This document shows positions 37,531 to 54,734 of a stretch of DNA of 64,000 nucleotides, piece by piece. The stretch comes from Rhizoclosmatium globosum. Taxonomy: Eukaryota; Chytridiomycota; Chytridiomycetes; Chytridiales; Chytriomycetaceae. Under the pieces are notes generated by a model. That model had not been told where the DNA came from. It did not search any database and saw only the letters and a list, made by a program, of their open reading frames with translations. The first letter of the stretch is position 1; each line of letters opens with the position of its first letter. The position numbers were made by a program, and so were the translations under genes. The DNA is taken from NCBI GenBank assembly GCA_002104985.1, contig MCGO01000082.1, forward strand, positions 1 through 64,000, read 5' to 3'.

Positions 37531-41889
<4,359 letters not shown>

Positions 41890-41984
41890 GTTTATTCTTC
41901 AATTTCAACGGTATTGCGAAAAAGAGGGCTTTTTGCTAATAAATTCTATGAGTAACGGGGTCGTTATTAAAGCAATCAAATAAC

Positions 41985-44320
41985 TTACTCAGTTGAATTT
42001 TGAGCCGCCGAATTTCCAAACACAGACGTATTACTTGCTGCCGCACCAAATCCTGCCGAAGTTGCACCGCCTCCAAATACGCTTTGGTTTGAGGTTCTGT
42101 TCGATACAATGTAAGAAAAATTGTTGCTTTATAAAAGTGAAGACTCACGAGGCAAAGCTTCCAAAGCCAGTTGCAGCAACGTTTGAAGACTGGCCGAAAA
42201 CTGATTGGGTATTGGAAACTGATGGGAAGGCGCAGCTGCAGGGGCTCCAAAGCCTGATTGTCCAAATGCTGACGCTTGTCCGAATCCAGATTGTCCAAAC
42301 GCAGGTGTTGTTGCCTGTGCACTGCCGAATCCACCAGCTGGTTTCGCTCCTTGACCGAAAGCTGATACTGGAGTACTTGGTTGGCCAAAAGAAGATGGCC
42401 AAGGTTGATTGACCAAATGCAGATTGGGTTGAGGCAGGTTGGCCAAAGGCAGGAACTGCTGTTTGCGTATTCTGACCGAATGCCGATCCTGAAGCAGAAT
42501 TTCCAAAGGCTGTTGGTTTTCCAAAGGCTGAAACTGGTGTGGTTCCAGAACTAAAAGCGTTGGATGAAGGAGTAGCTGCGGCAGCACCAAAACCAGATTG
42601 TCCAAATGGCGGCTGTGCTGAAGCATTGGCCGGCTGGCCAAAAGCTGTTGGTTTTGAGCCGAATGCCGAAGTACCAGATCCTGTAAAACCTTGACCAAAT
42701 CCAGTTTGAGATGAAGGCGTCGTATTGGCAGGTGAAGCATTTCCGAAGACTGATGGCGGGGCAGGGGAAGACGATTTCGAAGCAGCTGCTCCAAGGAATG
42801 AGAATCCAGAAGTTGTTGAGCTTGGTGCTGGTTGAGCAGATCCAAAAACTGAACCGCCGGAACCGAATGCTGAACTGGTTGGAACAGCTGTCGAAGCAGC
42901 CGTTGAGATACTTGCAGCTCCAAACATAGGGTTGACTTTGTTTTGCGAAGCAGTTGGTGCACCAAAGCTTAGGGCATCCCCGAATCCTTTTGTGATGGGT
43001 TCAGATGTGTTTTGGTACTTGCGAAACCAAATGGTTTTTCAGCTCTACTTTTTCATTAGATGTCGTTGCCTAGCATTGAACTTACTCTTTTTGAACAGTA
43101 CTGATAGGGGTAGAAGTTATGATTGGGCCTGTTTCCGTCTTGAACGGTTGCGGAGACCTAAGACATTAAAGTTAAACCTATTCCATTCAGAAACAGTACT
43201 TACGATGCAGCCGAAGAAAAAGACGAAGCAGCACCTCCGAATACTGATGCATTAGGGTTTTGGGTGGCTTGATTTGGCGTATCTGCCGGAACAGGGGTCT
43301 TAGGAGCTGCAAACGAGAATCCAGTTGCAGATGCAGACTCTTGCTTCACGTCCTTCGTTCCAAAAGAAAATCCTCCTGTTGTGACAGGAGCTGAAGTCTT
43401 CGTTCCATCTTTTGCAGTGCTTGGAGCGGAAGAAAATCCCCCTGTATTAGCAGCAGGAGATGCTTCTTTGTGGTATCTTTCGAAGTGCCTAAAGCAAATG
43501 AGAATCCTCCTGTTGGGGCTACGTCATTTGTTGTATCTTTTGCAGCGTTAATACCAAAGGAAAACCTCCAGTTGAAGCAGGAGTCGCTTCCTTGGTTGCA
43601 TCTTTGGTAGCGTTGGCATCTTTTGCTGCTTCTTTAGTAACACTAGAAGCGAATGCGAATCCTCCAGCTGAAACGGCGCCTTTGTTGCATCTTTGGCAGC
43701 ACTTGAAGCGAATGAGAATCCTGCAGTTGTTGCAGGAGCTGCTTCTTTTGTCACTTCTTTGCCAGTGTTATCAGAGAAGGAAAACCCCCAGCCACAACAG
43801 GAGCAGCAGTCTTTGATGTATCTTTGGTATTGTTTGAAGCGAAGGAGAATCCCCCAGTTGAGGTTGTATCTTTTGCTGTATCTTTGGCAGTACTTAAAGC
43901 GAATGAGAATCCTCCAGTTGGGGCGGGAGCTGATTCCTTGGGTTTTGATGCAAACGAGAATTCATTGGAACTGGCTGGTCCTGATTGTTTTTGGGCAGGT
44001 TCCTTCGTTTCTGTTAGAAGAGGCTTAGACTCAGTACTCAATGCACTAGCATTCCCATATGCCGATATAATAGTTTTTGGAGCAGAAAGTGAAGTTGCTG
44101 CAAAAAGGACCGGAGTTGAACTCTTAGGTGGAATCGGGACGGCTGGGATCGTCGACGCCCCAAACAAAGGCGGTTTGCTAGCGGCATCTGAAGGCTTGGG
44201 CCCAGACAAGTTGGATAAGTTTGATGTTGACTTTGCGACACGTGGCGTTTCGCATGCAGTGCAGTTAGCAGATGATTCCAAGTTGCTGGTCAGACACTTT
44301 TGACAAGTCCACTTGACGCC
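41985..44320 (-). other. fifth zinc finger and C-terminal FG/GF repeat region
   Basis: The fifth RanBP2-type finger ([10 protein letters not shown]...CTACETPR, about 44245-44312) is followed by FxFG modules ([17 protein letters not shown]). From 43.0 kb down there are SVFG, FGQSGFG and SAFGQ repeats, i.e. cohesive GF/FG type. The frame slips by one base several times here, for example near 42390, where FGQ repeats continue in the neighbouring frame. The last exon ends [17 protein letters not shown]. Confidence 0.75.
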
Positions 44321-47300
44321 CGGAGGAGAATTAAGACCTTGTTGCTTTGGAGATGGGCTCTTTGAGGGTATAGATTTCGTTACTGGCTTGACTACGTGCA
44401 CGCATTTTGTCTTCGATTTGTTGACCGAAACTGCAGCAGAATTCAAGGAAGCAATTAGTTTCATTTGCTTCTTGACGGAATCTGGAAGTGGTAAGGTTGA
44501 TTTTGGATGAAGATCTTCGTCAAAGTCTGCATCGTCTGCCGAAAACAAATTCTTGGTTTTGGAAACAACTTTAGCCTGCTTGGGTTGTGGAGACAGTAGG
44601 TGCTTTTGATGGACTTCAAACAACATTGAATCTACTTTTTTGGAAATGGTGACGGTGTGGGATGTAATTCGACGAATATTACGACATAGAGTGTCCCAGT
44701 CAGGAAGTCTATCAAGCGATTAGAATGCACAAGCGAAGCAAAAATCCTTACTTCGTCGCAGACCTCGATCCTGCTTGGATTTCCAACTCCTCCTTCATCT
44801 CAAGAAGGGACCCTTTCATATCCGCTAATTCGGATTCCATTTGCTAAATAAAGTCAATGATATGCTACAAATATGAAGATACCATACCTTGACTTTTTTC
44901 CTCAACAAACTCTGTAAATAAGCAAATTCTGGACCCAATTCAGCCTGAATCTTGGTCCATTGCGAATCTTTTTCCAGAGCATTTTGCAGCTTTGTGGAAT
45001 GCTCATTCTTTCCCTTGACTATTCAAAAATTGTAAGGTTCACAACACTTCAATCACAAAGAGAAACTCACTCAATTTCAAAATATCATCCAGTTCCTTCA
45101 TAATTTTCAGTCTATTCTCACTGTTTGATTCGACTGAGCTTAATTTCTTGTTCAGTTCTGACACATGGATATGGGTTTCTTGTAAAATAGTTGATGAGTT
45201 CTTCACCGCCTTTTCAACAAAAATCCCGCATTCAGAAGCAGTCGAATTCAGCTAGAAACAAAGTGGTCAATATTATAATTCCTGGATCGAAGTTCACCTC
45301 TTGCAACTCATCCTCTAATTCAGTTCGCAGACGCTCAAAAAGCTCCGAATGACTTGTTGGATCAGGGTAAGCTTTCTGTTTCACTTCACGTTTGACTGGG
45401 GCGGGCACTGCGACAACAGAGATAGGCTTAGTTGGTTTGACTTGTTCTACAGCTTCAACAACGACAGGAATGGATGCCGGAGCAATTTTCGGAGATATCT
45501 TGGATGCAAGAGGCTTGGGAGATGGTACTTTCGGAGCTGCAGTATGAAGTGAATTCTCCTGGGCAACAATTGGCTTCACTGGATTTGGCGTAGTTGTTGG
45601 CTTTATGGCTGGCGTCACGGATTCTTTCAATGCTTGAGATCCTATGGAAGGAAGTTGACCACAGTCAAAGATTTGTATCTTGGCTTTTGTTTTCCAGTCT
45701 TGTCACCAAGTTGTTCAATTTTGTCCACAACATCCATTCCTTCAATGACGCTGCCGAAAACTACGTGCTTGTTATCCAAATGAGTTGCCTTTCCGGTTAC
45801 AATGAAGAATTGAGATCCATTTGTGTTCGGGCCCGAGTTCGCCATTGACAATACACCACGACCAGTATGCTTCAAGGCAAACCCTTCATCGGCAAATTTA
45901 GACCCATAAATAGATTTCCCGCCTGTTCCGTTATGTTTGGTGAAGTCTAATTCATGCCAATTAATTATTGAATTAACAGCCCGCAACACTAACCTCCTCC
46001 CTGGCACATAAATCCAGGAATTACACGGTGGAAAATAGATCCACGGTATCCAAAGCCTTTTTCGTAAGTGCAAAGTGCACGGAAATTCTCCGCTGTCTTG
46101 GGAACAACATCACTGCGAAGCTCCATGACAATCCTTCCAAGTGAAGATCCATCCGCAGTAATATCGAAGAATACTCGAGGTTTCTCTCCTGGAGCAAGAA
46201 TTACTGGTGCTGGCGCAGATGGTGGTGACGGGCCTGATCCAAAACTGAGTCCAGAACCAAATGATGGACTGGCAGAAGCGGATGAAGTACCAAACAATGG
46301 GACTGCTGGACTTGAAGTTGGACCAAGCCCAAACGATAACGGCAATGAAGATTTTGGTTGGTCCTTTGGAGGAGCCCCAAATGTAGGTAACGGAGCAGAG
46401 ACGGCGCCAAAAGCCGGAACAACCACGGGGCTGACCGATGCAGGTTTAGAACCCACTTCCGCGGAATTTGTTTTCGCTGAATTTAAGTTCCCAAAAAGAC
46501 CAAACGATGGGACTTGATTTGTTGACGGAGAAGGTTTAGTAGCACCTTCAGGTGTCCATTGAAACACCGGCGCCGCAGTTTTTAATGCATCCACCTTCAA
46601 TACACTCGCTGTTGCTTTTGGTGTGGTGTCAGACTGGAGAGATTTTTAGTCATGTGATTAAGGGTCAAAATTCGAATCACCTTAGCTTCACGAGGAACAA
46701 CGCCAGTTAATGCCTTTGCCTTCGTCATATTCGTACAAGCGACATCTCTCTTATCTGTTGACAGATCCACAACATTATATACAAGTAACCATCCAGCACT
46801 GTTCAAGACATAAACCAAAGGTGCTGGGCACAAACTTGGGGCATCCGGTGAACTTCCTCCCTTAATCTTGTCTTCGCTCGTGAAATCAATGTCCAGACCA
46901 ACTGGATACGTTTCATTGTCATCGGAATCAAGCGGCAAAGTGACTCCTTCGCCGATTCTCCACACATTCCACTTTCCGTCTTTGCAGCCATACATTCCAA
47001 GTTCGTTCGACGCGAAATTCGCGTATGGCATGAGGTATGTGGTATCGCCCAGGCCCGAAATCAGACTGGCGTAGTAGTTGTATTGACTCTCGTCCTGTGG
47101 GAATGAGCATGGGTCATCCAAACGAAGGTATTCAGACTTGATTCCGGTTTTAGCAGTTCCGGTTTGAGTAATAACGAATCCCACAGATGGTTGATCAGTC
47201 ACAGTGTAAATGACCACAAAGACTTTGTCTTCCAGCCAAAAGATACTTTGCACTATGATTTCGCTCAGTAAGAGAGTCAATTAACTCAAAACATTACCTG

Positions 47301-50300
47301 AAACTTCCAAATCTTTCAGACTTGGAGGAACGTCAATTGTGTTTTTGATGGTTCCATCCAAACTAATTTGTCTAACTGTACCCAAATGATCACCAACAGC
47401 CAGTTGTTTTCCTTTACGACTCCAACACATGGCTGTGATGACGAATTCGTCAAGCTTATCCAAAGCAGTAAACTCGTTCTTCTCATGATCCAACATAAAA
47501 ATACTTCCATCCGCATGGTTCACTGCACAAATTGCAGGATAAGCCTCTGGATTGGGCAACAACACAAAGTCTTCTTGATTTGGGCTCTTCAAAACTTTGG
47601 CGGGTTCATGCTTATCCTTTACAAACCGAATTAAAAACACTTTTGAATGAGTAAGCGACTTACGGAAGCCAATTTTGAAGCCAAATAAGTCTGAACAGTT
47701 CCCGAAGTCAGTCCAACAAATACTGTTTCTTCGTCCGCAGAGAGGCGAATTTGGTTGACTACGTCATCTTCTATCTCAACTTGGACGATTCCGTCGACAT
47801 TAACGATTTGTCTCGCAGAAGCCTGTCAAATCAATGATCAGAAAACGAAACCATGGCTCGTAGCAATAATTCACCTTCGCCAATGATTCACGAACATCCT
47901 TACTATACACAAAACCAAATCCTGCACTTGTTGCAAACACAACATATCCAAATTTGTTGGAAATAGCCAACAGATTGTAGCACACTGCTTCCTCCACTGG
48001 GAAATCAAATGGATCCGAAACTTTAATCTTGGCATCTGATGGAATTTGTCTGATTTGAATGAACTGAATTGAAAGTTAAGATATCAACCAAGACATATCC
48101 ACAACTTACATCAGGTTCAAACTCATCCCCTTCCGTTTCAACCGCAGAGTGTACAGCTGGAGTCTTGACTTTCGGAGCTGGGGCCTTTTGTGCACAGATT
48201 TCAATAAAAACAAATCTAATTTTCTGGAATACATACCTCTGGCCAAGGTGCAGATTCTTTCTTTGCGGTGACAGCAGGTGTGGCTGCTTTGACTGGAGAA
48301 GGGTCGCGTTTTGGAATTCCAGCTGACTTTTTCTCTTCCTTAACCGGTACAGCAGCTGACGTTGAGCCTGCAAGCGAACCTGGGAATGGTACTGGCGCAC
48401 TGGCAACAGAATCAGCAGGTCTCTTTGTTTCACAAGATAAACATTGAGTCTTTGAGTCGTCGTTTTTGACTAAACAAACATCGCAAGTCCATTGGAGTCC
48501 TGAAATGGCAGCCTTAGTTACACTTGAGGCAGCTTCAGCAGGTTTGAAACTGAAGCCTCCAGCTGGTATGGAATCCTTTGGTTGCGAGAAACTGAAACCT
48601 CCAGTAGCAGAAGTTGAGCCTCCAAATCCAAATCCAGTTGCAGTGGCTGGTGTGTCCTTTGAAGCTATGAAACTGAATCCTCCAGTGCCAGTAGCTGGCT
48701 CCTTTGTCGAGGAATCGTCTTTCTTTGTTGCAAATGTAAACCCTCCCTGAAGTGCCGCAGGAGCAGGAGCACCCAAAACAGGTACAGCAGCGGTATTTGG
48801 CTTGAAACTAAATCCACCCGTGTTGGTTGCCGGTACATTCGGAGCATCTTCTTTCTGAGCGGCAAATGTAAAGCCACCGAGGCCAGAGGCTGGCGCCGAA
48901 AGAGCAGGGGAATCCGTCTTCGTGACAAAACTAAAACCGCCAGTTCCAGTTCCTGCAATTGTGGGAGCCGTCTCATCGCTTTTCTTTGGAGTGAAACTAA
49001 ACCCTCCTGTGACAGGAGGTTTCACTCCGAACGCGGTTGTATCAGAAGGTGAAGGGTCATCTTTCTTTGGAGTAACGCTGAATCCGCCAGAAACAGGGGC
49101 CGTCACTCCAAAAACAGTTGTGCCCGCAGGTGGTGGGGTTGGACTGTCTTTTGCAGGAGTAAAACTGAATCCTCCAGTCACAGGAGCCTTGGTTCCAAAT
49201 GCGCTTGTGACACCAAAGGCACTCGTGGTTCCAAACGCACTTTTCAGAGGAGCTGGAGAACTTGACTCCTTGGCAGCAGCCCCAAAACTGAATCCTCCAG
49301 TCATAGAAGTTGAAGCCGGAGCTGCAGATCCAGAACCAGTTCCACCCAAAGCACCCCCAAAAGTAAATCCACCAGAAGGTATCGCTGCAGGCGCCTTTAC
49401 TTCAAACAACGATGCCTTAGGTGCGGCAACAGCACCTACGCGCTTTGTTTCACAAGCAGCACATTGCGTAACATCATCCGTATTATGGATCATACAGACT
49501 TCACAATCCCATCCCCCAACAGGAGCGGAAGGCATCTTAAATCCTCCAGAAGCCGCTGGCTTGGAATCAAAGAGTGACGGCTTCGGTACAGCTGAAGCCC
49601 CCACCCGTTTGGTTTCACAAGCAGCACATTGCGTAGCGTCATCCTTATTGTGAATCATGCAAATGTCACATGTCCAACCTCCAACAGGAGCAGAAGGCAT
49701 CTTGAACCCACCAGCAATAGCTGAAGTAGTGGCAGCAGGTTTCGCGTCAAACAACGATGGCTTTGGTACAGCAACCGCTCCAACGCGTTTAGTCTCACAC
49801 GCTGCACACTGTGTAGCTTCAACCTTGTTGTGAATCATACAAGTCTCGCAATTCCATCCCCCAACAGGAGCTGACGGCATTTTGAAGGTACTCGGAGCAG
49901 GAGCAGGCGATTTCACAGCTGGAGGAGCGGATTTCTTGGCAGCTTCCACCTTCATTGTGCTAGCCACTGGTTTTGGAGTTGTCTGATCAAAATAGATTAA
50001 TCTTACAATAACCTTGCAACTGAACGACAAACCTTCGCAGATCCACTCAGTCCAGGCAAGACCTCAGCCTTCGTCATACTTGGACAAGAAACTTCACGAC
50101 GACTGGAAGTAAGATCCACAACGCTGTACACGACAAGACAACCGGCGCTGTTCAAGACAAACACCAAAGGCGCTGGACACAAACTTGGGGCATCCGGTGA
50201 AGTTCCTCCCTTAATCTTGTCTTCGCTCGTGAAATCAATGTCCAGACCAACTGGATACGTTTCATTGTCATCAGAATCAAGCGGCAAAGTGACTCCTTCG

Positions 50301-53300
50301 CCAATTCTCCACACATTCCACTTTCCGTCTTTGCAGCCATACATTCCAAGTTCGTTCGACGCGAAATTCGCGTATGGCATGAGGTATGTGGTATCGCCCA
50401 GGCCCGAAATCAGACTGGCATAGTAGTTGTATTGACTCTCGTCGCGTGGGAATGAGCATGGGTCATCCAAACGAAGGTATTCAGACTTGATTCCGGTTTT
50501 GGCAGTTCCGGTTTGTGTAATAACGAATCCAACTGATGGTTGATCAGTCACAGTGTAAATGACCACAAAGACTTTGTCTTCAAGCCAGAAGATGCTTTGA
50601 ACTGAACAAAGGACATCAGTATGCGATTTCGACTTTCAACACACAATCAAACCTGATACATCCAACCCCTTCAAGCTTGGAGGTACATCAATCGTGTTCT
50701 TAATAGTTCCATCCAAACTGACTTGACGAACAACTCCCAACTGATCTCCCACAGCTAACTGTTTTCCCTTTCGACTCCAACATAAAGCACTTGCGAAAAT
50801 ATTCAGGGCCAAAAGCTTCTCCAACGGTGTAAATTCATCCGACTCGATATCCAGCATGAAAACGGTTCCGTCAGCGTCATTAACAGCGATGCTGTTCGGA
50901 TACACTTCTGGGTTTGGCAAAAGAACAAAATCATTGTCGGTAGGGCTTTTCACGCTCTTCAAGGCTCTTGTATCGCCCTATATGATCGTGTGAGTGACCA
51001 ACAAAAACAAGCAAGAAAATCTATACCGCGGAGACACGAGACGCTTTATAAAAGAAGACGGTTCCAGAAGTAGTTCCAATGATGATAAGCTTCTGGTCCG
51101 CAGAAAGTCGAATTTGATTCACAACATCATCCTCAACCTCGATATTTGTGATTGAGTCCAAAGGAACGACTTGTCGAGCAGACGCCTAAGTAACTTAAAT
51201 AAGCACCTTGGTCGCTTTCTCTAAATGGTCCATGTATGCTCACCTTCCCAATCACAGCTCGAATATCCTTTGTGAAAGCGAATCCAAACCCATTACTCGT
51301 TGCAAACACAACATACCCAAATTTGTTTGAAATCGCCAGCAAATTGTAACAAAGGGGTTCGTCTTCTGGAAGATCAAACGCAGACGAAACTCGGACCTTG
51401 ACATCTGGTGGGATTTGTCTGATTTGAAGAAACTACAACACAAAACAGATTAAAGTCGTGTCAGAGTAAAATAAATCAAAAATTACATCAGGATTAAGTT
51501 CTCCGCCTTCAGTCTCTGAAACTGAATGTACGACAGGGCCTTTCACTTTTGGAACGCTTGCAGCTGGTGCTGGCGCCTGAATCAATACGGTCAAATGATA
51601 ATTAAAGGAACGCACAAATTTGTACCTCTTCTTTCTTAACTTCAACGTTTGGTTCAGTCTTTGCAGGAGACTTGTCCCTCTTTCCCCCAGCAGGACTCTT
51701 ATCTCTCTTTGGAGCCGCAACAGGAATAGAAGATGGTGCCGGTTGTTTTGCTGGTGACTTTTCGCGTTTTCCTGGAATATCAACCGGAGGAGATGACGAA
51801 ACTACTGCAGGTTTTTCTGGAGACTTTGCTCGCTCGGCCCAAGCATTCTTAGCAGGTGGAGGTCTCTCTGGAGATTTTTCTCTTTGTGGTGTAGCAGCAA
51901 TTGAGCTCGGTGTGGGAGTCGTTGTTTTGGTTGGGGAGGGCTCGCGTTTTGGACTGCCAACTTTAGTTGGTGGGGCTGGGAAGAAGGTGGAGGTGGAAGA
52001 TGTAGGAGTTGGAGAAGAGGAAGTAACGGAAGACACATCATTTGATGGTTTAACTGTGATATTGATAGGGTTGGCAATAGCTTTTGCAGGTGATTTGTCT
52101 CTGATGGGGCTGGCGTGCTGTGCAATGACAGGGATAAGCGAATGATACGTCGAGGAATAAGCTTACTCTCGAAGCCATGAAAGCAACGGGTGTTGTCATT
52201 TGTGGACACGAGCTCTCTCGTTCCCCTGACTTCTTATCCACCATTTGGTATACCAACAAGCATCCGGCAGTGTTGAGAACATACAACAAGGGACATGGCG
52301 GCAAATCAGGCTGATCAGGTGACGAAGCTTTGATTTTATCAGAGCTTGTGAAGTCAATATCAAGACCAACGGGATAAGTATCATTTTCCTCAGAATCGAG
52401 CGGCAACGTGACACCTTCTCCAATACTCCAATTATTCCATTCGCCATTCATTTGGCCAAGAAATCCTAATTCAGTGGAAGCAAAATTGGCATATGGAATC
52501 AAGTACGAGATTTCGCCGCTACAAAGCCGTCAGTTGCCATGAAGCCAATTTTCAGTACTTACAGCCCGGTAATAAGTGAGTTGAAATAATTTCCTCGTTG
52601 GCGGTCATCAATTGGGTATGGGTTTGGATCTTCCAGCTTCAGGTATGATGATTTGATTCCAGTCTTTGCTGTACCAGTCTGAGTAATAACATATGCATTC
52701 GCATTACAGTCATCTCCGGTCTGAATCAAGTAAACGACAATGAAAGTTTTGTCTTCCAACCAGAGAATATTTTGAACTGTGATTGGAAATTAGTAAAGCG
52801 CAAAGGTCAAAGAATTACAAAATGTGTGAGTATACCTGTAACTTGCGCGTCTTTGTGCGCTGGGGGTGGTTGAATCGTGTTCTTGACTTTCCCTTCCAAG
52901 GAAACTTGACGGACAACGCCATTCTTGTCCCCAACAGCCAACTGCTTTCCTTTACGACTCCAACAAGCTGTGGTAATATTTTTGAATTCGGTAAGGTGTT
53001 CAAAGTCTCCAGATTCCAAGTTGAGTATATGCAAAGAGCCATCTGTGGACAAAACTGCGCAAGAATCAGGGAATGCTTCAGGGTTTGGAAGAAGAGCCAC
53101 AATATTCTCGTTTGGAGACTGCAAGCTTTTGAAAGGCTTTTTGTTTCCCTGTGGAGACAGTTTTTAGTTGGAGTGGGTGTGTTGAGTGAAGGCGCATTAC
53201 CGAAGCCAAAGCAGCAGCCTTGTGCAGCAGAATCTTTCCAGAGTCGAGAGCAATCAAGACAATTTCGTGAGAAGCATTGAGTCTGACGTGAGTGATTGTC

Positions 53301-53758
53301 GAGTGAGCAACCTCAACAACCCGCTTAGCACTAGACTGCAGCTCAATAGTCTGACGCGGTGCAGCCTACACTTTCCATTCAAGCGATAGTTTTTAAGAAA
53401 AGGGAAAGAAGGAGACAGAACAGACGCACCTGAGCCAGGGCAGCGCGCACGTCTTTTGTGTGGACAAAGACAAATGCGTTTGTTGTGGCAGCGACGGCGA
53501 AACCGCGGCGACTCGAAACAGACAACAAATTGTAGAACGCCGTTGCTTCGAATGTGTTTGTTGTGTTTGTTGTTGGTGGGAACACGCGCACTTTGGCGTC
53601 GGTTGGACTTGTTGAAACAGAGATGAACTGCGAAGTAGTTGCAATAGTAGCAAGTAGCAAGTAGTTGCAAGTGTCAGTCTAACTCTCTAATCACATTAAA
53701 AAGAAGGTGCTACCTCGGCCTCGTGCGTACCGCCTTCGCTTTCGCTAATGCTGGCCAT
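41985..53758 (-). CDS. giant nucleoporin: three Nup159/Nup214 propellers + RanBP2 zinc fingers + FG + cyclophilin + coiled coil
   Basis: Predicted component of the cytoplasmic face of the nuclear pore. ATG at 53756-53758 opens [15 protein letters not shown]. In order: propeller 1 (53.7-52.2 kb), a [12 protein letters not shown] linker, propeller 2 (51.5-50.05 kb), four RanBP2 zinc fingers with FxFG repeats (50.0-48.3 kb), propeller 3 (48.1-46.7 kb), an FG linker, a cyclophilin (46.1-45.65 kb), a Pro/Ala linker, a coiled coil (45.35-44.65 kb), a fifth zinc finger, then FG/GF repeats. Every join I checked is in frame with GT-AG introns. The only internal stop, after the cyclophilin, disappears if one A is restored in a run. 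About 3,450 residues by estimate. A last exon using a GTAAGT donor at the stop could move the end to 41905. Confidence 0.85.
44640..45350 (-). other. Nup214/Nup159-like coiled-coil region
   Basis: After the Pro/Ala linker come [66 protein letters not shown] and [34 protein letters not shown] and [12 protein letters not shown] follow. Four short introns separate the pieces. In known Nup214/Nup159 this part joins the Nup88/Nup62 (Nup82/Nsp1) trimer; that partner set is inferred here. Confidence 0.7.
45625..46180 (-). other. cyclophilin (peptidyl-prolyl isomerase) domain inside the nucleoporin
   Basis: Reads [80 protein letters not shown] and [17 protein letters not shown]. The catalytic Arg (HRV), Phe and Gln (GFMCQ) are present. 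The position of cyclophilin A Trp121 is His. The literal frame ends VVNFLP-stop; one A added to the run at about 45688 gives [12 protein letters not shown], the canonical cyclophilin end, and runs on into the Pro/Ala linker. A C-terminal cyclophilin domain on a nucleoporin is known from animal Nup358. Confidence 0.88.
46690..48120 (-). other. propeller domain 3 of the giant nucleoporin
   Basis: Reads [101 protein letters not shown] and [18 protein letters not shown]. It is entered by exon [15 protein letters not shown] and left through an intron to [16 protein letters not shown], which parallels [15 protein letters not shown] after propeller 2. Confidence 0.8.
46830..47232 (-). repeat. near-identical intragenic segment, copy in propeller 3
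   Basis: About 400 bp match 50179-50581 at a constant offset of 3,349 bp with about ten differences by eye. The flanking propeller sequence is clearly more diverged. Confidence 0.85.
48240..49990 (-). other. array of four RanBP2-type zinc fingers with FxFG repeats
   Basis: One long open exon. Each finger has the pattern W-x-C-x2-C-x3-N-x6-C-x2-[11 protein letters not shown] (about 49794-49857), [10 protein letters not shown] (49614-49677), [10 protein letters not shown] (49443-49506) and [10 protein letters not shown] (48424-48492), each ending CETKR. Between them are repeated GGFSFTP and GGFTFA modules, the FxFG type bound by transport receptors. In Nup153 and Nup358 such fingers bind Ran; Ran binding here is inferred. 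Confidence 0.85.
50040..51480 (-). other. propeller domain 2 of the giant nucleoporin
   Basis: Reads [99 protein letters not shown] and [18 protein letters not shown]. No start codon is needed: it is entered through an in-frame exon ([15 protein letters not shown]) that parallels the protein's own N-terminus. Its C-terminal part is nearly identical in DNA to propeller 3. Confidence 0.8.
50179..50581 (-). repeat. near-identical intragenic segment, copy in propeller 2
   Basis: Partner of 46830-47232. The shared part covers the WLEDK exon through [17 protein letters not shown] to [13 protein letters not shown]. Confidence 0.85.
52190..53758 (-). other. propeller domain 1 of the giant nucleoporin
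   Basis: Nup159/Nup214-type seven-bladed propeller: [130 protein letters not shown]. In yeast and human this domain binds the mRNA-export helicase Dbp5/DDX19. It is the most diverged of the three copies, and has one extra intron (about 52517-52561, inside the ITGL/GEISYL stretch) that the other two lack. Confidence 0.8.
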
Positions 53759-53804
53759 TGGTTTCGTGAGGAAGTTCAAAGGTCCAAAAAGAAAAGGTGC
53801 TCAA

Positions 53805-54734
53805 ATGGCTGTTACCACAAAGCGTTCTTCAAAGCGAAGGAGCAAGTTGCTTTACCAGGACGATTCATCAGATGCCTCGTTGGGCTCTCTGATTCAAGCT
53901 GACGGCGATCCTGCTATGCCTACCCACATTGTACAGAACATCTTTGCTTGGATTCACCCACGCACTGTCCTAAAGTATTCTCGCCTGTCGAGATCAATCT
54001 ATTTCGCAATGAATGATCCCGTCTTTGCGCTGCTGAACTTGGAGCGATTCGTCCCAATTACAAACACGGACTCCTTACAATCACTGCCCGATGAGTTTGA
54101 TTCGTTGTGGTTCCGATGGCCTCGCATTTATCAAAAAGTATATGCTGCTTGGAGGCTCTATGATCGAGCGAAACTGGATTGGCGTGGTGCAAACACTCTT
54201 CGACGAAAGATACCCAAGGCGATCGGGTTCCTTTCCAACCTGACTTACCTCAGCCTTGGCTCATGCAGGCTCATTGGTGAAATACCCTCTCAAATTGGCA
54301 GGATGATGTCTCTTGAGCATTTGCATTTGGCTTGGAACAACCTCTCAGGGCCTATTCCTCCTGAGATCGGCAACTTGGTTCATCTCAAATACTTGTCGCT
54401 ATCAGACAACAACCTTGACTCAAACATACCCGAAGAAATTGGGAACCTCGTTTCACTTCAAGTGTTGGATCTTGGCAACAACCGATTGGGCGGCCATATC
54501 CCATCAACAATCGGCGGCCTCACACAACTACAGAAGATGGCTCTCCAAAATAATCGACTCTCCGGCACCATTCCACTTGAAATTGTGCATCTTGTTTGTT
54601 TGCAGGAAATCAATCTATACGAAAATGGCTTCGAACGATGGCTGATTCCCAATTCGGTCGCCAGTGATTCTCATCTCTTTCATGTCTTGAAAGGCATAGG
54701 ATTCTACCGAGAAGGAGAGAATCATTGGAGATAA
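53805..54734 (+). CDS. leucine-rich-repeat (L-domain-like) protein
   Basis: Single-exon gene. An upstream in-frame ATG (53748) overlaps the divergent nucleoporin start, so the ATG at 53805 (MAVTTKRSSKRRSK) is preferred. The N-terminus is basic; residues about 35-75 look F-box-like (PTHIVQNIFAWIHPRTVL, KYSRLSRSIYFAM). Then about seven plant-type LRRs of the 'IP..IG.L..L..L.L..N.L.G' form: GFLSNLTYLSLGSCRLIG, RMMSLEHLHLAWNNLSG, NLVHLKYLSLSDNNLDS, NLVSLQVLDLGNNRLGG and LTQLQKMALQNNRLSG. There is no signal peptide or membrane helix, so an intracellular adaptor is likely. Such proteins are common in chytrid genomes. The partner is unknown. Confidence 0.85.
   Translation: MAVTTKRSSKRRSKLLYQDDSSDASLGSLIQADGDPAMPTHIVQNIFAWIHPRTVLKYSRLSRSIYFAMNDPVFALLNLERFVPITNTDSLQSLPDEFDSLWFRWPRIYQKVYAAWRLYDRAKLDWRGANTLRRKIPKAIGFLSNLTYLSLGSCRLIGEIPSQIGRMMSLEHLHLAWNNLSGPIPPEIGNLVHLKYLSLSDNNLDSNIPEEIGNLVSLQVLDLGNNRLGGHIPSTIGGLTQLQKMALQNNRLSGTIPLEIVHLVCLQEINLYENGFERWLIPNSVASDSHLFHVLKGIGFYREGENHWR

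Follow-up and report, generated by a model that had tools for sequence, protein, structure and literature searches.

The window analysed here, a 64,000-nucleotide stretch of the chytrid Rhizoclosmatium globosum (assembly GCA_002104985.1, contig MCGO01000082.1, positions 1 to 64,000), carries on its minus strand a gene for a large nucleoporin in which Nup214-type propellers occur together with RanBP2-type zinc fingers and a cyclophilin domain. An original prediction, made from the letters of the DNA, had placed a single minus-strand gene at 41985..53758 and described it as merging Nup214 and Nup358/RanBP2 parts. A hand-built model of the region 53.9-41.9 kb bore out the single gene and its start (ATG at 53758), whereas the end was found 80 bases beyond 41985, at a TGA codon in 41907-41905. 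The gene (41905..53758) comprises 28 exons, all of its introns (27/27) have GT-AG ends and lengths of 41-86 nt, and the product is about 3,495 residues long if the frame breaks described below are read through.

Exon 1 (53714..53758) contains the start codon and a lead segment of the SETEGG type, similar segments preceding propellers 2 and 3. It is followed by propeller 1 (exons 2-6, 52167..53627), a Ser/Pro/Lys-rich (KSP) linker in exon 7 (51626..52117), the second lead (exon 8) with propeller 2 (exons 9-12; together 50033..51576), exon 13 (48237..49982), and the third lead (exon 14) with propeller 3 (exons 15-18; together 46681..48184). The exons ahead of propellers 2 and 3 have no in-frame ATG and are spliced in frame to the preceding module. 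Exon 13 encodes zinc fingers 1-3 (49865-49785, 49685-49605 and 49520-49440), GGFSF-type phenylalanine-glycine (FG) repeats and zinc finger 4 (48500-48417). Downstream of propeller 3 lie an FG-rich spacer with 8 FG dipeptides (46190..46633), the cyclophilin domain (45652..46183, with an intron at 45993-45947), a coiled coil in exons 20-24 (approximate limits 44600..45395), zinc finger 5 (44240..44320) and an FG-repeat tail (41905..44200) ending in DKKPSFSQYR. The model has 56 FG dipeptides, 32 of them in the tail as read through its breaks.

The presence of Nup159/Nup214-type propellers, for which the title of the original prediction had given no number, was upheld by a scan with profile hidden Markov models, in which PF16755 matched exactly three times, full-length and above the cut-off (E-values of 9.7e-52, 1.7e-34 and 7.7e-35). 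A profile built from these three propellers and three of relatives matched solved Nup214 propellers over nearly their whole length (E from 1.1e-48 to 5.4e-45), but yeast Nup159 at 5e-5 only. The five predicted zinc fingers were likewise recovered: PF00641 was found four times in exon 13 (E 8.1e-22), the fifth finger scored 20.1 bits against a cut-off of 27 bits, and all five fit W-x-C-x2-C-x3-N-x6-C-x2-C, with four cysteines at the usual spacing. The cyclophilin domain was confirmed by PF00160 (E 1.4e-48). The coiled coil is conserved in chytrid Nup214 relatives, with an E-value of 6.8e-78 to the Podochytrium protein and 1.6e-10 to the single-propeller protein of Quaeritorhiza (P0012).

The chytrid protein shares with Nup214/Nup159 the N-terminal PF16755 propeller, the FG repeats and probably the coiled coil, and differs from them in having three propellers rather than one, five zinc fingers and an inserted cyclophilin. 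With Nup358/RanBP2 it has in common a cluster of Nup153/358-type zinc fingers, FG repeats and a cyclophilin with histidine at position 121; unlike Nup358, it contains Nup214 propellers and a probable Nup214-type coiled coil, and its cyclophilin is internal, ahead of the coiled coil, instead of C-terminal. As had been predicted, neither a Ran-binding domain (RanBD) nor a tetratricopeptide repeat (TPR) region was found. The RanBP1 domain PF00638 was absent from the six gene pieces scanned (down to 43.75 kb), and from the nucleoporin locus (C402) and its other haplotype (C19) in a six-frame genome search, which alone covered the tail below 43.75 kb; no TPR family was detected in the Pfam scan down to the same position, and the N-terminus is a propeller. 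Judged by its sequence, the protein is a relative of Nup214 and not a Nup358 orthologue, in agreement with the original prediction. That prediction had also taken zinc fingers and cyclophilin as hallmarks of Nup358, which holds only in part: these extras are Nup358-like, but zinc finger 2, the only finger tested, had both RanBP2 and Nup153 as its best solved matches, so the fingers are no hallmark of Nup358 alone. Nup153, a nuclear-basket protein not known to carry a propeller or cyclophilin, has zinc fingers of the same type.

Apart from its own other haplotype, this was the single Nup214/Nup159-type locus found in a search of the genome (56.9 Mb, 420 contigs). Because of the Nup214 backbone and this apparent sole-copy status, the gene likely encodes the Nup214 of Rhizoclosmatium. 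A weak propeller match on contig C334 proved to be a generic WD40 protein and was rejected as a second Nup214/Nup159 gene. Gle1 is present in the genome. A separate gene (L047, C68:328000-334000, other haplotype on C79) combines FG repeats with three zinc fingers of the RanBP2 type (E 1.6e-24) and a RanBP1 domain (E 2.7e-11). Its product may be a Nup2/Nup50-like basket protein whose fingers resemble those of Nup153; since they belong to the same Pfam family, this fungus, like animals, has fingers of this kind in two or more nucleoporin-like proteins.

The arrangement was compared with a second haplotype and with a congener. A DNA search with 536 bases located the second haplotype on contig C19, which at about 97% identity reaches from 43.4 kb up to the 5' end of the gene; a genome-wide search with the 12-kb gene had matched the cyclophilin part only. 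C19 matches all three propellers, zinc fingers 1-4 and the cyclophilin, and its introns have GT-AG ends at the 23 of 23 positions covered, the remaining 4 of the 27 lying beyond the contig. Exons 1-18 (2,057 codons, spanning the three propellers and zinc fingers 1-4) show no indel and no stop between haplotypes. Counted column by column up to codon 2,355, the haplotypes differ by 85.5 synonymous vs 37.5 nonsynonymous changes (ratio 0.138); the exon 7 linker has 7 vs 3, and introns 1-18 differ at 35 of 926 sites. In Rhizoclosmatium hyalinum, two partial gene models, which are predictions and not cDNA, cross the same joins: P0123 spans propeller 1, linker and propeller 2 (100% identity over 95 residues and 98.7% over 224), with a nearly identical linker, and P0126 runs from propeller 2 to zinc finger 4. 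Identity to the window in the propeller parts compared was 95.8-100%. An R. globosum protein (P0150) agrees closely with a cyclophilin locus of the genome analysed (98.7% over its last 75 residues), which together with the near identity of the R. hyalinum models assigns the sequence to Rhizoclosmatium, probably R. globosum.

Among the best 120 of 576 matches of a protein search, chytrid proteins ranked first, most of them filed as hypothetical, and the matches below were mainly to RanBP2 and other proteins with a cyclophilin. Multi-propeller proteins were found in five further genera, all belonging, like Rhizoclosmatium, to the Chytriomycetaceae. Podochytrium has three propellers, six zinc-finger motifs and the coiled coil in one protein of 3,338 residues (P0001), whose last ten residues, DKKPSFSQYR, are the same as in the window protein. 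Chytriomyces confervae (P0002) has four propellers and eight zinc-finger motifs, Siphonaria (P0003) two and three, Physocladia (P0005) two and six, and Entophlyctis (P0007) two and five. These five proteins have 2-4 PF16755 propellers, 3-8 zinc-finger motifs and the same coiled coil, whereas PF00160 was present in none of them and the order and number of modules vary. Separate genes for the modules in relatives, named beforehand as grounds for doubt, were mostly absent, with P0123, P0126 and P0001 crossing module boundaries and one Siphonaria model (see below) to the contrary. In Quaeritorhiza, from another family, a model marked partial showed one propeller and the coiled coil but no zinc finger. 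The window cyclophilin matched none of fourteen propeller or zinc-finger proteins of relatives (0/14), annotated proteins that may miss exons and several of which are partial, and no protein combined PF16755 with PF00160 among the 127 matches listed, 456 further matches lying beyond them. A cyclophilin in a multi-propeller Nup214 has so far been seen only in Rhizoclosmatium, among the annotated relatives compared.

Two side observations concern these relatives. The Entophlyctis luteolus protein P0007 is named 'E3 SUMO-protein ligase RanBP2' in NCBI, but by Pfam it contains Nup214 propellers and lacks both a RanBP1 domain and a cyclophilin; the name may mislead surveys of Nup358. Residues 3909-3987 of the C. 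confervae protein P0002, after its FG tail, correspond to a piece of serine dehydratase (PF03313), probably from a fused gene model.

Exon lengths agree among the propeller units, with 198/165/313/566 nt for propeller 1 (the last split by an extra intron), 189/159/325/569 for propeller 2 and 189/159/319/572 for propeller 3. From this agreement, the duplication of the unit probably took place at the level of genomic DNA and included the lead exon. When 22 propellers were placed in a tree, in which 4 of 19 inner branches were without resolution, the first propellers of Rhizoclosmatium, Podochytrium and Siphonaria grouped together (98/98), and propellers 2 and 3 were sisters within Rhizoclosmatium (100/100) and likewise within Podochytrium (100/100). 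Exons 12 and 18 (50601-50033 and 47252-46681) are 93-99% identical over about 400 nt, far above the 60-73% found for the remaining exon pairs between propellers 2 and 3; this, along with the haplotype differences of propeller 2 and its lead exon (37 synonymous, 1 nonsynonymous), suggests gene conversion, which could hide an older duplication. The lack of a zinc finger in Quaeritorhiza and of a cyclophilin in the propeller proteins of relatives points to a gain of zinc fingers and extra propellers within the Chytriomycetaceae, with the cyclophilin added later. The best reading is that Nup214 was remodelled at the level of the family, through tandem duplication and the acquisition of zinc fingers, and later received a cyclophilin insertion, in parallel to Nup358 and not as an ancestral state.

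The original prediction had left room for an ancestral combination, which these distributions do not support, the single-propeller outgroup having no zinc finger and the propeller proteins of the relatives compared having no cyclophilin. The more specific proposal, inheritance of cyclophilin and zinc fingers from a Nup358-like ancestor common to this fungus and animals, was weighed on the cyclophilin itself. Of nine active-site positions inspected, eight agree with CypA, and so do N102 and Q111 (the labels of positions other than R55 and W121 are those we take to be the CypA ones), and histidine stands where CypA has W121. The cyclophilin of Nup358 also has H121, is an active but weaker isomerase, and binds capsid in a manner not inhibited by cyclosporin, according to parts of PMC3750474. 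A chytrid cyclophilin with two domains has the histidine in its first domain as well, so the residue does not prove kinship with Nup358. A ten-residue stretch of the window domain resembles GKAEHLDFKH of Lepus RanBP2 and KKAEHLDFKH of other RanBP2 proteins, which together with the shared histidine and the affinity of zinc finger 2 to RanBP2 and Nup153 would fit common descent. In a tree of 47 cyclophilin rows, however, the window domain took no firm place among CypA-type domains, and the seven vertebrate RanBP2 rows formed a clade of their own (100/99) without it. None of the alternative groupings was rejected by the approximately unbiased test (p-AU of 0.333 with RanBP2, 0.165 with all chytrid rows and 0.302 with two R. 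globosum paralogues), so that a shared origin with the cyclophilin of RanBP2 is not rejected and has no positive support. Given also that RanBD and TPR were not found in the gene, descent from a Nup358-like ancestor appears quite improbable. Under the preferred reading, remodelling of Nup214 within the family, the cyclophilin insertion is probably recent, as judged by its distribution and not by the tree.

The best explanation, to which we assign a probability of roughly 0.72, is a Nup214-type gene with a tandem triplication of its propeller, Nup153/Nup358-type zinc fingers and an inserted CypA-type cyclophilin, for which a role at the cytoplasmic face of the pore is proposed. From knowledge of the families, the coiled coil would dock the protein in a cytoplasmic complex of the Nup88/Nup62 type, and on the cytoplasmic face the propellers may act as a multivalent platform for the binding of export factors, a Dbp5/DDX19-type helicase or others. 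The zinc fingers are predicted to hold RanGDP beside the FG mesh, and the cyclophilin to act on emerging cargo as a local prolyl isomerase or docking module. A chytrid Nup214 so equipped would unite part of the Ran-linked and cyclophilin functions for which animals use Nup358.

Several observations weigh against this explanation. An arginine at position 348 of human Nup214 (numbered on the alignment), which we take to be a DDX19 contact, is kept in Quaeritorhiza and is not kept in any of the three window propellers, which makes multivalent Dbp5 binding the weakest step of the proposed mechanism. Against solved structures the coiled coil gave weak matches (Nup62 E 0.0022, Nup214 E 0.026), and a designed protein scored better; the Nup88 candidate in the genome is a weak match as well (E 1.2e-8). 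The first propeller of Siphonaria lies in a separate model (P0122, marked partial) on another contig, a split that may reflect a broken assembly or a separate gene. The gene structure was derived from genomic sequence and not from transcripts. Finally, a frame-following script placed 8 shifts between 45.7 and 42.2 kb and none in the preceding 8 kb, and C19 has no clean frame in exons 19-24, where it shows 35 indel runs relative to the window, most of them close to the contig end.

These last points bear on three other accounts of the locus. That the propeller copies were misjoined in assembly would fit the indels nearby and the roughly 400 nt shared by propellers 2 and 3, but the same order recurs in both haplotypes, the R. 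hyalinum models cross the joins from propeller 1 through the linker to propeller 2 and from propeller 2 to the zinc fingers, and five other genera have two to four propellers per protein, which leaves such an artefact with hardly any credibility. The remaining accounts concern the frame around the cyclophilin. The claim that all modules are joined in frame holds for the first 2,371 residues, up to a point within the cyclophilin, after which an in-frame stop follows at 45644-45642 and the sequence as assembled contains the 8 shifts, 7 of them in the FG tail. The script set the first shift at the stop (45647), whereas by sequence the break falls in an A-rich tract at 45682-45695 (GGAAAACAAAAGCC), one base shorter in the other haplotype. 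The next frame, open over 45702-45232, encodes near its beginning the usual cyclophilin end, including the last strand, and continues into the coiled coil. At a break near 43.46 kb the other haplotype reads through in frame, and near 43.56 kb both haplotypes are out of frame; being rich in indels from exon 19 on, C19 is unable to vouch for the frame there. A search for a protein of a relative in which cyclophilin and coiled coil are joined was dominated by free cyclophilins, the best 120 of 7,698 protein matches covering no more than 39% of the query, and the join therefore rests on the window's own frame.

On this evidence the locus could be divided into two genes, the first (three propellers, zinc fingers and cyclophilin) ending at 45644-45642, where the window frame does stop and the other haplotype is also out of frame, and the second encoding the coiled coil and FG tail. 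We consider this very unlikely: the same open stretch runs from the normal cyclophilin end into the coiled coil, the first of the eight breaks down to 42.2 kb is located within an A-rich tract, and propellers and coiled coil reside in one protein in Podochytrium, Siphonaria, Physocladia, C. confervae and Entophlyctis. Alternatively, within one gene, an intron of about 65 nt (GT at 45706, AG at 45642) would remove the cyclophilin end and restore the frame without any sequencing error; its ends and length are like those of the other introns and, by hand count, the spliced frame enters the coiled coil. This account is also doubtful, as the excised stretch encodes the conserved last cyclophilin strand, whose retention within an intron would be surprising, and the seven later breaks stay unexplained. 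Under the preferred reading of one continuous Nup214-type gene, the frame breaks are read, without proof, as assembly errors.

Nup358 is called vertebrate-specific in passages of PMC8421043 and PMC6371224, and was marked only for opisthokonts in the tables of PMC2951903 in their flattened form. No paper on a chytrid Nup214 was found in the part of the matches covered in the open-licence literature searched, and the one open-licence paper combining Rhizoclosmatium globosum with the nuclear pore has, in the portion available, nothing on this protein. From the domain composition, the fungus seems to have built a Nup358-like mixture of domains by its own route. To our knowledge, the reason for the presence of a cyclophilin and zinc fingers in animal Nup358 has yet to be settled; another lineage with the same kinds of domain on a different nucleoporin offers an independent comparison, in which shared functions become candidates for the selected function. 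The tandem propellers also raise a question of stoichiometry, namely the number of helicase or export-factor sites per pore.

The nucleoporin gene is closely flanked on both sides. A convergent plus-strand gene (39885-41889), coiled-coil-like by eye, ends 15 bases from the nucleoporin stop and is broken into numerous short frames, which would fit a high frequency of indel errors (or introns) across 40-44 kb. On the other side, a divergent plus-strand neighbour (53700-54734), leucine-rich-repeat-like by eye, has its start closely adjoining that of the nucleoporin.

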